Below, piece after piece: positions 2,783 to 34,046 of a stretch of 34,677 bases of DNA; the stretch's first letter is position 1, and the number at the start of each line of letters is the position of its first letter. The DNA is taken from IMG/VR virus record IMGVR_UViG_3300021959_000181, positions 1 to 34,677 of that record; one strand, written 5' to 3'. A program made the position numbers and the translations under genes. This DNA is from a virus. The notes beneath the pieces are model-generated. The model had not been told where the DNA came from. It did not search any database and saw only the letters and a list, made by a program, of their open reading frames with translations.

Positions 2783-3609
2783 ACCAGGTAGCAAAAACAG
2801 AAGACCCCGCCAGCATCCTTGAGAGCGTGATGATTGGCGGTGACCTGTCACGATTAAGTGTCGATGAAAAAATGAAGTACTACAAAACAATCTGCGAATC
2901 ACTTGGGCTAAATCCAATGACCAAGCCTTTTGATTACATCAAGCTAAATGGTAAAGAAGTTCTTTATGCAAAGCGTGATTGTGCAGATCAACTTCGTGCT
3001 ATCCACGGTGTGAGCATAACTAATTTAACAAAAGAAGAGATTGACGGAATCTATATTGTCAATGTTACAGCAAAAAATAAATATGGCCGTATTGACTCCG
3101 ACACCGGAGCCGTCAATATGGCTGGCCTCCGAGGTGAGGCCAAAGCCAACGCAATGCTGAAGGCAATCACGAAGGCAAAGCGGCGAGTCACTTTGTCGAT
3201 CTGTGGTTTAGGGATGGTTGATGAGACAGAGGCTGATGATACTCCTGGAGGGCCAGTTAATTACCAATTGGATGAACTTTTTGGTGAGGAGATCAAAAAC
3301 GGGGCTCCAGATTTGCCACAGAAGGCCATTGAGGCACCTCCAGAGCCTGACATACCCGAAGAAATTGACAGCCCTCCAGAGCCCTTAAAACTGGCTACTG
3401 ATGACAGTCATCAATTTTACACAGAATATTTAGACGAGTTAACTAAGATATACAATGACGAGGGTATCCCCGCTCGGCAACGCATGACCAACATGAAAAA
3501 GTTTATGCAAGCCAACAAGAAAGGGCTCGATGGTATACCAGAAGCTGGCAGTAAAAAGCTGGAAGACAAACGCAAAGAATATAACAAATTGTTAGGGCCA
3601 AAAAAATGA
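2779..3609 (+). CDS. Single-strand annealing / recombination protein (RecT-like)
   Basis: Probable partner of the upstream exonuclease that anneals resected single strands. The N-terminal core has LSVDEKMKYYKTICESLGLNP, then TKPFDYIKLNGKEVLYAKRD, and a KANAMLKAITKAKRRVTLS helix before GLGMVDETEADD. This arrangement is common in phage annealing proteins, and the GLNP motif recalls RecT/Red-beta. The C-terminal half is a proline- and acid-rich linker followed by a charged helical tail (residues about 165-276). ATG 2779 gives an ATGA overlap with the previous stop and has GGAG at 2766; the upstream in-frame ATG 2764 is less likely. The exact superfamily is not certain. Confidence 0.65.
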   Translation: MNQVAKTEDPASILESVMIGGDLSRLSVDEKMKYYKTICESLGLNPMTKPFDYIKLNGKEVLYAKRDCADQLRAIHGVSITNLTKEEIDGIYIVNVTAKNKYGRIDSDTGAVNMAGLRGEAKANAMLKAITKAKRRVTLSICGLGMVDETEADDTPGGPVNYQLDELFGEEIKNGAPDLPQKAIEAPPEPDIPEEIDSPPEPLKLATDDSHQFYTEYLDELTKIYNDEGIPARQRMTNMKKFMQANKKGLDGIPEAGSKKLEDKRKEYNKLLGPKK

Positions 3610-23279: not shown

Positions 23280-23603
23280 TTATTTCTCCTTGCTAAGTTT
23301 GTAAGATTTTAAAAGATTTCGGCCTTTGCTGACCGCCGAGGCTTTGTCACCACGGTGACCCCATGCCTCTAGTGATAATTTCAGTCGTGTCTTTTTGCCG
23401 TTCTTCATCAGTGGCCCGTTTGTTGATCCCATGCGTACCAGGAAGGAACCCTTTCTTCTTTTTTGCTGGGGTGTCTTCGCTGACTTTTTGACCGGTGCTT
23501 TGAGTGTACCGCCGGTCTGTGCCTTGTAGCTGGCTCGGCCTTTAGCATTTAATCCACCCTTTGGGTTCTGCCCCGCCTTGCGAGTCCATGCCGCACTCTT
23601 CAT
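23280..23603 (-). CDS. DUF6321-like basic protein
   Basis: A 107-aa basic protein starting MKSAAWTRKAGQNPKGGLNA and followed by KGRASYKAQTGGTLKAPVK, then KGSFLVRMGSTNGPLMKNGK and RLKLSLEAWGHRGDKASA. The two blocks are those of a small family (I recall DUF6321) found beside portal genes of short-tailed phages and in marine viral contigs. The function is unknown. Overlaps the portal stop by 4 nt. Confidence 0.75.
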   Translation of the reverse strand: MKSAAWTRKAGQNPKGGLNAKGRASYKAQTGGTLKAPVKKSAKTPQQKRRKGSFLVRMGSTNGPLMKNGKKTRLKLSLEAWGHRGDKASAVSKGRNLLKSYKLSKEK

Positions 23604-25922: not shown

Positions 25923-27426
25923 CAAAGTCCGACTTGGCAATTGGCGGCTGGGCAAAGTTCATTGGCCGCTTGGTCATGCGTTTATGTTCGCCCTGGAGGA
26001 CGAGATAGCCGTAAGCGTCACCAACGTGGGAGTGTTCGTTTTTGTTTGGCACATCTCGAAAGCGTTCCTGACCGGAGCCCATAGATACACGGCTGAAGTA
26101 ATAGCCACCGGCCAGGGCTTTGCGGGTACGCTGGCACTTTTTGTCAATAACGAGGCCAGGGCGTTTATCAAAATAGCGGATCATGGGTGCGGCCATCGCC
26201 TCACGCCTGGTCTTCCAATCGTTGGTCGCCGCCGGTCTGGCCAGCAAGCCGAGTGTCTTCAAGTGATCGAAGGCCGTGACCTCGAATATCTGATCCCTCT
26301 GCATACCGGCTGGATCGCCCCAGACAATAACATCAGCCTTGGGAAACATAACTTCAATTTCTGATTTCAACTGGTTGCCAAAACGCTCAAGACCCATGTC
26401 GAAGGTGACAAGCTCATGGAGGACACGCCATTGGCCGCTGGGGTGTTTCTGTCCGAATACAGCCGCCGGTGTCAAGCCAAAGTCCAGACCGATCTGCAAT
26501 GGCAAGCTCGGATCAAACTGCAACCCGTCCACTGACATTGATTCATCGTCATACTCCGGCGTGATGGGCCGACCTTCCTGGACAAAAGTATATTCGCCCT
26601 TGGCGTAACAGCGAATCCAATCCAGGTTCTTGCCGCCTACGAGTTGGTCATAGTAACCGGCTGGCAAGTTGGGCAAGTTCTCGGCAACTGGGTTTGTCAT
26701 CCACCATCGACCCGCAGACTTGGTGAACCCGTTGAACTCCGGCTCCGCGGGTAGATCGCTTTCCGGCACTTCCAATACGCCGCCTTGTTGTCTGAAGAAC
26801 TTCCAGGCAAATTTTCCGCCTGGTGCTTCCTTGCCTTCGCTCAATTTAAAATACCAATGGTCATCGTCCATCGGGTTGCTGTCCATCCAGATGCCCCGCC
26901 AGCTTGCACCGCCGTCAGCCTTGGTAGGATAGCGACCGACACGGTGTGACAGTCCATCGATAATTGCTTTCGGCAGTTCCCTGGCTTCATTGATCCAGGC
27001 ACCGGTCAATTCCAGTGACAACAGCTTCCGCACATCCTTGGGCTGGTCCAGTGCCAGGAAGATCACTTCGCAGTCAACCCCGTGGGCATCGCCACGGCTG
27101 GGTAATTTTATGTGATGGGTTATGGGCGGCGACCAGTGGGCACGGCCCCAGACATTTTCTGGGAACAATTCCATCCATGTCTTCAAGGTCGTAGTTCTCA
27201 GCATTGGGTAGCTGTTTCTGACAACAGCAAACCTTGAATATCTAATACCATCCCTGGGGCTGGGCTTCTGTCGGACAGCCCGTAACATAATTTCGGCGGC
27301 ACAGGCGTAGGACTTACCCGATCCAACCGGCCCCATCAATCCACGGACAAAGGAATTGTCCTGCAGGAACTTCCAGATATTGGGAGCCGTCTTAAAATCA
27401 AGGTCGAGGCTGGCTATTTCACTCAT
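25909..27426 (-). CDS. terL: Terminase large subunit
   Basis: DNA packaging motor, 505 aa from ATG 27426 (upstream GTG 27435 is in frame but ATG has AGGAAGGTG at ideal spacing). ATPase: Walker A GPVGSGKS (about residues 32-39) and Walker B GAWINEARE with the catalytic Glu near 147. Nuclease: IGLDFGLTP (about 300) and VIVWGDPAGMQ, with HSHVGDAYGYL near the end as the third acid cluster. Overlaps terS. The full set of motifs leaves little doubt. Confidence 0.95.
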   Translation of the reverse strand: MSEIASLDLDFKTAPNIWKFLQDNSFVRGLMGPVGSGKSYACAAEIMLRAVRQKPSPRDGIRYSRFAVVRNSYPMLRTTTLKTWMELFPENVWGRAHWSPPITHHIKLPSRGDAHGVDCEVIFLALDQPKDVRKLLSLELTGAWINEARELPKAIIDGLSHRVGRYPTKADGGASWRGIWMDSNPMDDDHWYFKLSEGKEAPGGKFAWKFFRQQGGVLEVPESDLPAEPEFNGFTKSAGRWWMTNPVAENLPNLPAGYYDQLVGGKNLDWIRCYAKGEYTFVQEGRPITPEYDDESMSVDGLQFDPSLPLQIGLDFGLTPAAVFGQKHPSGQWRVLHELVTFDMGLERFGNQLKSEIEVMFPKADVIVWGDPAGMQRDQIFEVTAFDHLKTLGLLARPAATNDWKTRREAMAAPMIRYFDKRPGLVIDKKCQRTRKALAGGYYFSRVSMGSGQERFRDVPNKNEHSHVGDAYGYLVLQGEHKRMTKRPMNFAQPPIAKSDFDVFA

Positions 27427-27853
27427 CGATATCACCTTCCTTCTTTACCGCTACAACTTCCGGCCCGTGCATCGTAATTCCTACGACTGAGGGGGCTTTA
27501 CTTTCTTCACTAAGCGGCTCCAATAGCCCTGCACTTTTTGCCAGGACTTTAAGCACACTGACTTTATCGTGGAGTTCAATTTCCAAAGTAGGGTCACCAT
27601 CTTTGCTCCTTGTTACTCGTAATTTTTTTATGGCATGGGCCACGGCGTCAGGAATATCCTCCGAGGCTTTGACCGTGACATTGCCCTGGCTGTCCCAGCT
27701 AACAACATCGGTTAAGTTTGCCCTGGCAATATCAACCAGGGTCTGTGCAATGCCCTCCTTGTTCTGGGCAATGACATCACTGCGACCACGCAACCGGTCG
27801 CCCAGCTTCTTCACGCCGCCAAAACGGCCAGTGGGGTGAGGACTACCAACCAT
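27419..27853 (-). CDS. terS: Terminase small subunit
   Basis: A 144-aa protein directly upstream of terL, expected to recognise the packaging site and form a ring on DNA. The segment EGIAQTLVDIARANLTDVVSWDSQGNV and the later EIELHDKVSVLKVLAKSAGLLE match small terminase subunits of the Terminase_2 type. ATG 27853 overlaps the stop of the -1 frame of the preceding gene (TAATG), important for the frameshift argument. Confidence 0.85.
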   Translation of the reverse strand: MVGSPHPTGRFGGVKKLGDRLRGRSDVIAQNKEGIAQTLVDIARANLTDVVSWDSQGNVTVKASEDIPDAVAHAIKKLRVTRSKDGDPTLEIELHDKVSVLKVLAKSAGLLEPLSEESKAPSVVGITMHGPEVVAVKKEGDIDE

Positions 27854-28127
27854 TAAAACGGTATCTTGTCATCAAGATCGATAGGCGTGTCTACAGAACC
27901 AGCGACACGCCCCGTTACTTTCCCCGCCCGTCATCCTCAAACGGCGGCATCATGGAAATAAAAACTTCCACCTGGCCGTTATCATTCATCTGGGGAACCG
28001 GCAACGCCTCCAGTTGTAAATTAAACCCGTCACCGTTCTTTTTGGGGAAGGCTACCCCGACACGGTTCCAGTACGTCTTGCCGTCACGGCCCTTGCGGGG
28101 TGTCTTCAACTCATAACGATCAGCCAT
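27853..28127 (-). CDS. Frameshift fusion: SSB-like protein with acidic C-terminal tip (91 aa)
   Basis: Predicted product of a -1 shift at codons 68-70 of the 70-aa ORF. After Lys70 the ribosome would continue for 21 codons, giving a flexible linker with TGRVAGSVDTPI and ending DLDDKIPF before TAA (27853-27855). SSB proteins end in D-D/x-D-x-I-P-F, which recruits host replication and repair enzymes. The TAA shares TAATG with terS, exactly like other junctions of this operon, whereas the zero-frame stop leaves a 61-bp gap. The phage encodes no other SSB in the window. A sequencing indel in the GGGGAAA run is the main alternative. Confidence 0.72.
27884..27938 (-). promoter_or_regulatory. Programmed -1 ribosomal frameshift signal
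   Basis: In transcription order: an SD-like GAGGA (27938-27934), 9 nt, the slippery heptamer G GGA AAG in the zero frame (27924-27918; the same heptamer drives lambda gpG-T), zero-frame stop TAA (27917-27915), 6-nt spacer, and an 8-bp GC-rich stem GGCGTGTC/GACACGCC (27911-27904 and 27891-27884) with a 12-nt loop. Heptamer, spacer, hairpin and upstream SD together match the canonical bacterial architecture. Confidence 0.78.
27915..28127 (-). CDS. Small beta-rich protein, probable phage SSB, zero-frame form (70 aa)
   Basis: The zero-frame product reads MADRYELKTPRKGRDGKTYW then strands RVGVAFPKKN, FNLQLEALPVP and VEVFISMMPPFEDD, ending DGRGK at the slippery heptamer. The strand pattern suits a small OB-like fold, and similar small proteins (K-T-x-W-x-R-V-G-x-A-F-P-x-K-x-G-x-G) occur in alphaproteobacterial phages and plasmids without assigned function. 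It begins after GGGAG 8 nt upstream and overlaps the previous gene. This form lacks the acidic tip made by frameshifting. Confidence 0.8.
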   Translation of the reverse strand: MADRYELKTPRKGRDGKTYWNRVGVAFPKKNGDGFNLQLEALPVPQMNDNGQVEVFISMMPPFEDDGRGK

Positions 28128-32428: not shown

Positions 32429-33202
32429 ATGACAATCACAACCGAAACACTTGTAAGACATTGGGCACAATTTAAAGCTGAAGTTGATGCGGGTGCTTTG
32501 GTTGTTGTCAACCACAGCGGCGGCAAGGACAGCCAAGCCACTTACGCTGTTATTAAATCTCACGTTCCAGCAGATCAAATTATCGTAGTACACGCTGACC
32601 TGGGCGATGAAGTTGAGCATGAAGGATTGGCTGATCACATTCGGGCCAACATCGATCACGAATTGCTGGTTGCTGAAGCCATCTGGAAGGACGGCTCTCG
32701 CAAGACTTTGCTGGACGCTATTGAGAAGCGTGGAATGTGGCCTTCAAGTGCCGCACGTTACTGCACCAGCGATTTCAAGCGTGGTCCGTGCGATAAAGTT
32801 ATTAGGGCACAACATGATTGGAAGGCGAAGCCCCGAAATGTCATTAGTTGTTTTGGTTTCCGAGCCGAGGAAAGTGCGGCCCGTACAAAGCGACCTACCT
32901 GGCAACGGGTCGAGCGTAACTGCACAAAGACAAGACAATGGTTTGAGTTCTCACCAATCCATGATTTGCTCACCGCCGAGGTTTTTGATGTAATCGAAAA
33001 GGACGGACAAAAACCTCATCCGATTTACGCAACTGGTAACGAGCGTTTGTCATGTGTTTTTTGTGTGTTGGGTTCCGACAATGACATCCGCAATGGTGCT
33101 AAACAACGCCCCGCATTGTTCCAAAAATATTTAGAACTAGAAGAGAGAATTGGCCACACTTTTCGTGCAAAACAATCATTGGCCGAAATTGTTGCTATTT
33201 AA
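32429..33202 (+). CDS. PAPS-reductase / adenine nucleotide alpha hydrolase-like protein
   Basis: A 257-aa protein of the PP-loop ATP pyrophosphatase superfamily. SGGKDS (residues 30-35) is the ATP-pyrophosphatase loop; VVHADLGDEVEHEGL is the next conserved strand-turn. RYCTSDFKRGPCDKVIRA and RLSCVFCVLGSDNDIR supply four cysteines that could hold an Fe-S cluster, as in DndC-like and phage PAPS-reductase proteins. Roles in sulfur assimilation or in sulfur-based DNA modification are both possible; no other dnd genes are present. ATG has the shared GGGAGAT leader. Confidence 0.8.
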   Translation: MTITTETLVRHWAQFKAEVDAGALVVVNHSGGKDSQATYAVIKSHVPADQIIVVHADLGDEVEHEGLADHIRANIDHELLVAEAIWKDGSRKTLLDAIEKRGMWPSSAARYCTSDFKRGPCDKVIRAQHDWKAKPRNVISCFGFRAEESAARTKRPTWQRVERNCTKTRQWFEFSPIHDLLTAEVFDVIEKDGQKPHPIYATGNERLSCVFCVLGSDNDIRNGAKQRPALFQKYLELEERIGHTFRAKQSLAEIVAI

Positions 33203-33215
33203 GGGGAGATAGAAA

Positions 33216-34046
33216 ATGATAGCCAGTAAAAATAATTCGACCCAGGCTGTCTTATACTTGCGTGTTTCAACAAAGAAGCAAGGCATCGATGGCCTGGGCA
33301 TCAAAGCTCAAGAGGATATGGCACGGGCCAAAGCTGAAGAGCTGGGTCTTGAGGTCATTGCTGTTTTTAAAGAGGTTGAATCAGGCCGCAAAAGCCGCCG
33401 ACCAGAATTTAAGAAGTGCATGGAGATGGCTATCGACACCGGTGCCGTAGTCATTGTCGCCGCCATGAGCCGCCTGACCAGGGACTTTAATGTCATGTCG
33501 TACATAGCAAGTGTGAGTGAAGCTCACGGCATTGGCATAGTAGCCTGTGATGTGCCTCAACTCGGTGACCCAGCCCAGACTAAATTCATCTGGCGTATTA
33601 TGGCCTCGGTCGCCGAGTTTGAATCAGAACAAATCAGACAGCGTACTAACCGTGGGTTGAAAAAGGCAAAGGACAGTATCAGTAAAAAAGGTTTTTACAT
33701 GACCAACGAAAAGAAGGTTGGCACACAAGTGATACCGTCACGAAAGATTACCAGCCTGGGCAATCCAAGCATCGATAAGGTCTTCAAAAAAGGCGGGGCG
33801 ACAATGAAGAAGAACGCTCGGGAATTTGCTATCCGCACCTATCCTATTATCCAGGAGATTGAGGCGGCTGGCATTACCAGCTTACGAGGCATAGCCAAAG
33901 CACTCAATGCTCGTGGTGTATTGACGTTCCAGGCTGATTTAGATGACCAGGGGGTTGATGGCGTCAGCCGTGCCCAGACGAATCGCAAGCCGACTAAGTG
34001 GGGGCCTGAGACTGTGAAGCGTGTGATTGCCCAGGGACGTAAATAG
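33216..34046 (+). CDS. Serine recombinase / resolvase
   Basis: A 276-aa recombinase with the resolvase fold: YLRVSTKKQGIDGLG with the nucleophile Ser18, SGRKSRRPEF and MSRLTRDF with the conserved arginines, and ASVAEFESEQIRQRTNRGL as the E-helix. After it comes a Lys-rich stretch and a small HTH-like C-terminus (LRGIAKALNARGVLTFQ). Shorter than large integrases (about 500 aa), so a dimer resolver or inverter is more likely. ATG has GGGGAGAT upstream. Confidence 0.88.
   Translation: MIASKNNSTQAVLYLRVSTKKQGIDGLGIKAQEDMARAKAEELGLEVIAVFKEVESGRKSRRPEFKKCMEMAIDTGAVVIVAAMSRLTRDFNVMSYIASVSEAHGIGIVACDVPQLGDPAQTKFIWRIMASVAEFESEQIRQRTNRGLKKAKDSISKKGFYMTNEKKVGTQVIPSRKITSLGNPSIDKVFKKGGATMKKNAREFAIRTYPIIQEIEAAGITSLRGIAKALNARGVLTFQADLDDQGVDGVSRAQTNRKPTKWGPETVKRVIAQGRK

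Follow-up and report, generated by a model that had tools for sequence, protein, structure and literature searches.

Layout of the putative recoding site

On the minus strand of the window, that is, the whole 34,677-nucleotide viral stretch analysed here, a 70-aa ORF lies ahead of the small terminase subunit gene terS. The 3' end of this ORF reads CGG_GGA_AAG_TAA, and a second reading frame runs on past the stop codon. The features of the locus are as follows.

27915–28127, minus strand: 0-frame ORF of a tail-less SSB-like protein (70 aa, PHROG 18187; 56-member alignment, model pLDDT 87.8)
27934–27938, minus strand: SD-like GAGGA, with the heptamer 9 nt downstream (suggestive only)
27918–27924, minus strand: slippery heptamer G_GGA_AAG (GGGAAAG), in X_XXY_YYZ phase
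27915–27917, minus strand: 0-frame stop codon TAA, directly 3' of the heptamer
27904–27911, minus strand: 5' arm of the stem, GGCGTGTC, 6 nt 3' of the heptamer
27884–27891, minus strand: 3' arm of the stem, GACACGCC
27853–27918, minus strand: -1 frame tail VTGRVAGSVDTPIDLDDKIPF with its stop codon TAA, carrying an SSB-type acidic tip and showing a third-position bias of changes
27419–27853, minus strand: small terminase subunit gene terS (PF03592, E = 2.7e-7)

Read in the -1 frame, the gene gains 21 extra codons and the C-terminus DLDDKIPF, and the stop codon of this tail (27855–27853) shares the sequence TAATG with the ATG of terS. The stem comprises 8 bp, and with the spacer of 6 nt it lies approximately 12 nt from the P-site codon's first base. 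The preliminary description had inferred a programmed -1 frameshift from the heptamer phase, the adjacent stop codon, the stem, the -1 tail, and the TAATG overlap; every one of these elements was present, all on the minus strand. A separate start for the -1 tail was excluded, as the tail contained no ATG, GTG, or TTG codon.

The heptamers G_GGA_AAG, A_AAA_AAG, and C_CCA_AAG are the most efficient ones measured in E. coli (PMC4066793). Among the genes of the window, in-phase X_XXW_WWN heptamers occurred 9 times in 3786 codons, approximately once per 420 codons. Both frames were open for 13 nt before the 0-frame stop codon, and G_GGA_AAG was the sole heptamer there. The recoding layout goes beyond chance, because such heptamers are rare, the 13-nt overlap holds one of them, the stem is strong, and the layout recurs in five other distinct sequences.

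Elsewhere in the window, an in-phase C_CCA_AAG, also a top-three E. coli motif, was located at 23565–23559 (minus strand) inside an ORF at 23603–23280. A PAPS-reductase-like gene (PHROG 424; 32429–33202, plus strand), possibly an auxiliary metabolic gene, had a serine-recombinase-like gene (33216–34046) beside it.

The split gene in related phages

Beyond the window, the same split was found in six IMG/VR contigs representing five distinct sequences; with the window, this makes seven contigs and six distinct sequences. Two of the relatives, L209 and L291, came from broad DNA pattern scans (AAG-stop followed by DDxIPF), among the matches listed, the others being mostly unrelated genes; several contigs may derive from related sampling projects. 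At the place of the window heptamer, all five other sequences carried A_AAA_AAG, with A7G in all but L007, followed by TAA in L007, TAA in L209 and in the identical second contig L409, TAG in L410, and TGA in both L291 (= L318) and L317. The G_GGA_AAG version was present in one contig only, the window. The 0-frame stop codon always adjoined the heptamer, though it was TAA, TAG, or TGA, and despite these three stop codons the -1 frame read GTA or GTG (GTR), encoding Val, throughout. The -1 tail was 21 codons long in every split member and ended with DLDD(K/E)IPF, and the stretch open in both frames was 7–13 nt with the heptamer inside (window, L007, L209, and L410). Two fused sisters, L319 and L320, carried the same tail in frame, without the heptamer, the stop codon, and the strong stem.

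The preliminary description had proposed looking for the heptamer, the stem, and the DDxIPF tip in related phages, and all three were kept. It had also raised the concern of a sequencing or assembly indel splitting a single in-frame gene, and while the heptamers do sit in short homopolymers (G4A3; A6–A7) and most relatives are fused, the split is shared by seven contigs and six distinct sequences whose heptamers differ and which use all three stop codons, and a hairpin excess is confined to split genes. A lone indel therefore fails as a general explanation, and its chance is negligible. The GAGGA, counted there among the agreeing elements, was indeed present 9 nt upstream, and SD-like pairing was partly kept, as GAGG in the window and L007, as GGAG in L209 and L410, and weakly in L291 and L317. 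The element is plausible, but it is weaker evidence and not independent, because it falls within codons that specify a conserved PP(F/Y)E-like motif.

A hairpin began 6 nt after the heptamer in all six distinct split sequences, within the 5–9 nt called for in a -1 frameshift signal. The null for folding consisted of synonymous recodings of the same peptide weighted by codon usage, and the region after the stop codon folded more strongly than these nulls in 6 of 6 sequences (z from -1.7 to -3.0; fractions at least as strong, 0.003–0.057). The stem of the window exceeded 97.7% of the synonymous-codon nulls, and the z-scores of single stems were modest (-2.3 for the window and -1.7 for L007). All 8 pairs of the first helix were formed in the window, L209, L291, and L317, and 7 of 8 were formed in L410 and L007. 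In L007, the most distant split member, three pairs were changed on both sides relative to the window; the stem pairing was counted manually, in register, allowing L007 a loop shorter by 3 nt, as MAFFT had placed its gap at the end. L319 and L320, whose tails are homologous to the split ones, had 6 of 8 pairs with two mismatches within the helix, and showed no stem excess (z of 0.3 and -0.1, respectively). The frameshift reading is thus supported by the heptamer, stem, and tip of the relatives, with L007 keeping the stem through different pairs. The six split sequences are related, so that neither the stem figures nor the selection figures below are independent tests.

To describe selection on the tail, changes were counted by codon position. 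In five alignable tails, the minimum numbers of changes at positions 1, 2, and 3 of the -1 frame were 3, 3, and 15, respectively (p = 4e-4), the third position taking 15 of 21 substitutions. Between L209 and L291, the tail had 11 synonymous changes and 1 nonsynonymous change in the -1 frame versus 1 and 11 in the 0 frame; the corresponding numbers were 5 and 1 versus 1 and 5 between the window and L291, and 3 and 0 versus 0 and 3 between L291 and L317. The tail evolves as coding sequence of the -1 frame, with purifying selection on the shifted frame. That the tail has been lost, with the 70-aa protein alone being made and the -1 tail a relic, might be suggested by the existence of tail-less family members such as an unannotated Microviridae ORF, but it is scarcely credible for a tail that is open, exactly 21 codons long, and changed mainly at the third positions of that frame.

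A fused product could also arise if RNA polymerase slipped on the A run, without ribosomal frameshifting, and runs of A6–A7 were found in L007, L209, L410, and L291. However, the window is split despite having only G4A3, and the conserved hairpin spaced by 6 nt and the codon-phased heptamer are signals of ribosomal frameshifting. Runs of A6–A7 are, moreover, short for efficient polymerase slippage, and we regard this origin as very improbable. It is very likely that the extension is made by -1 programmed ribosomal frameshifting, although no product has been measured.

Frameshifting might be real and yet serve mainly to couple the translation of terS, by bringing ribosomes to the TAATG overlap. 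The tail stop codon overlapped the ATG of terS in the window, L291, and L317, with the 0-frame stop codon approximately 60 nt upstream. But the start that the tail stop codon overlapped was that of another small ORF in L007 and in L410, and L209 had no overlap; fused relatives had the same overlaps, and coupling would leave the conservation of the acidic tip unexplained. Such a main role is unlikely.

Protein family and SSB-like features

The 70-aa protein of the window was a member of PHROG 18187 (unknown function), and it had no match in Pfam, at the curated level of NCBIfam, or among PDB sequences. Its relatives were found in IMG/VR phages, with more distant ones in bacterial genomes. In the named phage records, the search for the closest homologue yielded nothing beyond a weak match in Microviridae, the DNA-level search found no match, and the scan of bacterial genome contigs returned distant relatives only, none with a frame-shifted tip.

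Among 95 distinct sequences, the acidic tip was in frame in 58 (by a lenient motif that also counts ends such as NDDPFGLPDV), split in 5, and outside the motif in 32. Most of these 32 were distant matches from bacterial genomes, and two (L323 and L324) ended with DR(E/D)IPF. On the in-frame counts among the 95 sequences, the acidic tip is a trait of the phage members, with the tipped protein as the norm of the family and the split as a derived control.

Several other members of the family were observed. The subclade of L009, L014, and L035 ended with NDDPFGLPDV, with five residues beyond the acidic motif and the tip not at the extreme C-terminus. L074–L107, from MAGs mostly of Myxococcota and Planctomycetota, were distant relatives of the body with a YW(T/N)(K/R)(I/V)GVAF core and without the phage-type tip. 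In the Microviridae ssDNA phage MH572507.1 (L438), an unannotated tip-less member at approximately 2842–3033 lay just before the replication initiator gene.

In the tree of the body, which was built from 66 columns and in which many forks were weak, the split appeared in three separate places, and at least three changes were forced by well-supported branches. The window was near L001–L004, L007 was beside L008 and L013, and L209, L410, and L291 were beside L319, L320, and L322. The DNA identity between the window and L291 was approximately 55% in the body, 91% in the tail, and 92% in the downstream region, the change being sharp near the heptamer (27853–27924). We infer, without a formal breakpoint map, that recombination near the heptamer may have linked an already existing recoding tail to a new body.

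The AlphaFold model of the window protein was a compact, beta-rich body (pLDDT 87.8), and that of the fused L319 had a disordered linker ahead of the tip. Fold searches returned phage relatives (BFVD), with solved SSBs, SsbA among many others, as weak matches only (Foldseek), and from these searches with a predicted model an SSB fold can be neither claimed nor excluded. No match to the SSB domain PF00436 was obtained for the window protein, and no member of the 56-member alignment matched an SSB. The acidic C-terminal tip D-D-x-I-P-F was present, in the -1 frame in the window and in frame in most phage relatives, and the gene was positioned between the replication genes and terS. The same slot before terS is occupied in the OM43 phage MEP301 by an annotated ssDNA-binding protein ending with ELEDDLPF; MEP301, a phage of Methylophilales, was the nearest isolate by TerL (68%), too distant for host assignment. 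Tips on phage SSBs matter, because deletion of the last six SSB residues of phage HK620 cut Sak4 recombineering 10-fold (PMC5928155).

The putative SSB identity is supported by the tip, the layout, and the gene slot, on which it rests, with no known fold matched. As Pfam, NCBIfam, and PDB gave no match and the fold matches were weak, ssDNA binding is only inferred. With no recognised ssDNA-binding fold, it remains possible, if doubtful, that the frameshift adds the tip to a body that does not bind ssDNA, for example a partner-mimic titrating the SSB partners of the host. A beta-rich body, a disordered linker, and a tip nevertheless occur together as in SSB; the MEP301 protein in the same slot is annotated as ssDNA-binding, and a family member lies beside the replication initiator in an ssDNA phage.

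Proposed mechanism and relation to known systems

Subject to the inference of ssDNA binding, we consider with good confidence that a small SSB-like protein is made in two forms by programmed -1 frameshifting. Ribosomes at G_GGA_AAG would be held by the hairpin based 6 nt downstream, possibly with help from the SD-like stretch upstream, and the adjacent stop codon may add to the pausing. Some of them would re-pair on GGG_AAA by -1 tandem slippage and read 21 more codons, giving a 91-aa product extended by a flexible linker that leads to the acidic tip DLDDKIPF, while those that do not slip would end at the adjacent stop codon and yield the 70-aa form without the tip. By inference, the body would bind ssDNA and the tip would recruit replication or recombination proteins of the host or the phage, as the C-terminus of E. 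coli SSB does. The shift may serve to control what proportion of the subunits on phage ssDNA carries the tip.

Several known systems resemble this arrangement in part. The dnaX gene of E. coli (tau/gamma) likewise has an A_AAA_AAG-type heptamer, a hairpin a few nt downstream, and an SD-like stretch upstream, and likewise makes a replication protein in two C-terminally different forms; however, the protein is unrelated, and the dnaX shift leads to the shorter product, whereas the shift in the window leads to the longer one with a short peptide tip. Frameshifted C-terminal extensions at a set ratio are also made by the phage tail-assembly chaperone G/GT, the major capsid gene of T3/T7, and Lactobacillus phage A2, but these are structural genes, whereas the gene in the window belongs to DNA metabolism and is extended by a tip for recruiting proteins. 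In bacterial SSB (DFDDDIPF) and tipped phage SSBs (HK620, NDYPPF; PMC5928155), the tip likewise forms the extreme C-terminus, behind a flexible linker. The tip of bacterial SSB is constitutive, whereas the DLDD(K/E)IPF tip here is added by frameshifting to a body not recognisably PF00436. The gp50 of MEP301, likewise small, located before terS, and ending with ELEDDLPF, differs in its body sequence and in having the tip in frame.

No SSB made by programmed frameshifting was found in the open-access literature searched, where absence is not proof; no frameshifted SSB is mentioned in two surveys or in the accessible part of a large frameshifting review. The mechanism is of a known kind; as far as can be told, the novelty lies in the class of gene and in the logic of tip dosage. 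This is probably the first SSB-type protein with a partner-recruiting tip added by frameshifting, and the heptamer, hairpin, and tip probably form a cassette that recombination joins to different bodies at the slippery site.

The C-terminal tips of SSB are the means by which it recruits its many partners, and engineered proteins have been used to study how many of them an assembly requires. In the split genes, evolution seems to have fixed the proportion of tipped subunits by means of a ribosomal switch, and the fused sisters provide natural controls. Gene callers stop short of the functional C-terminus in frameshifted proteins of this kind. The finding would carry frameshifting in phages beyond structural genes into DNA metabolism, and it offers a natural setting in which tip dosage can be tested.
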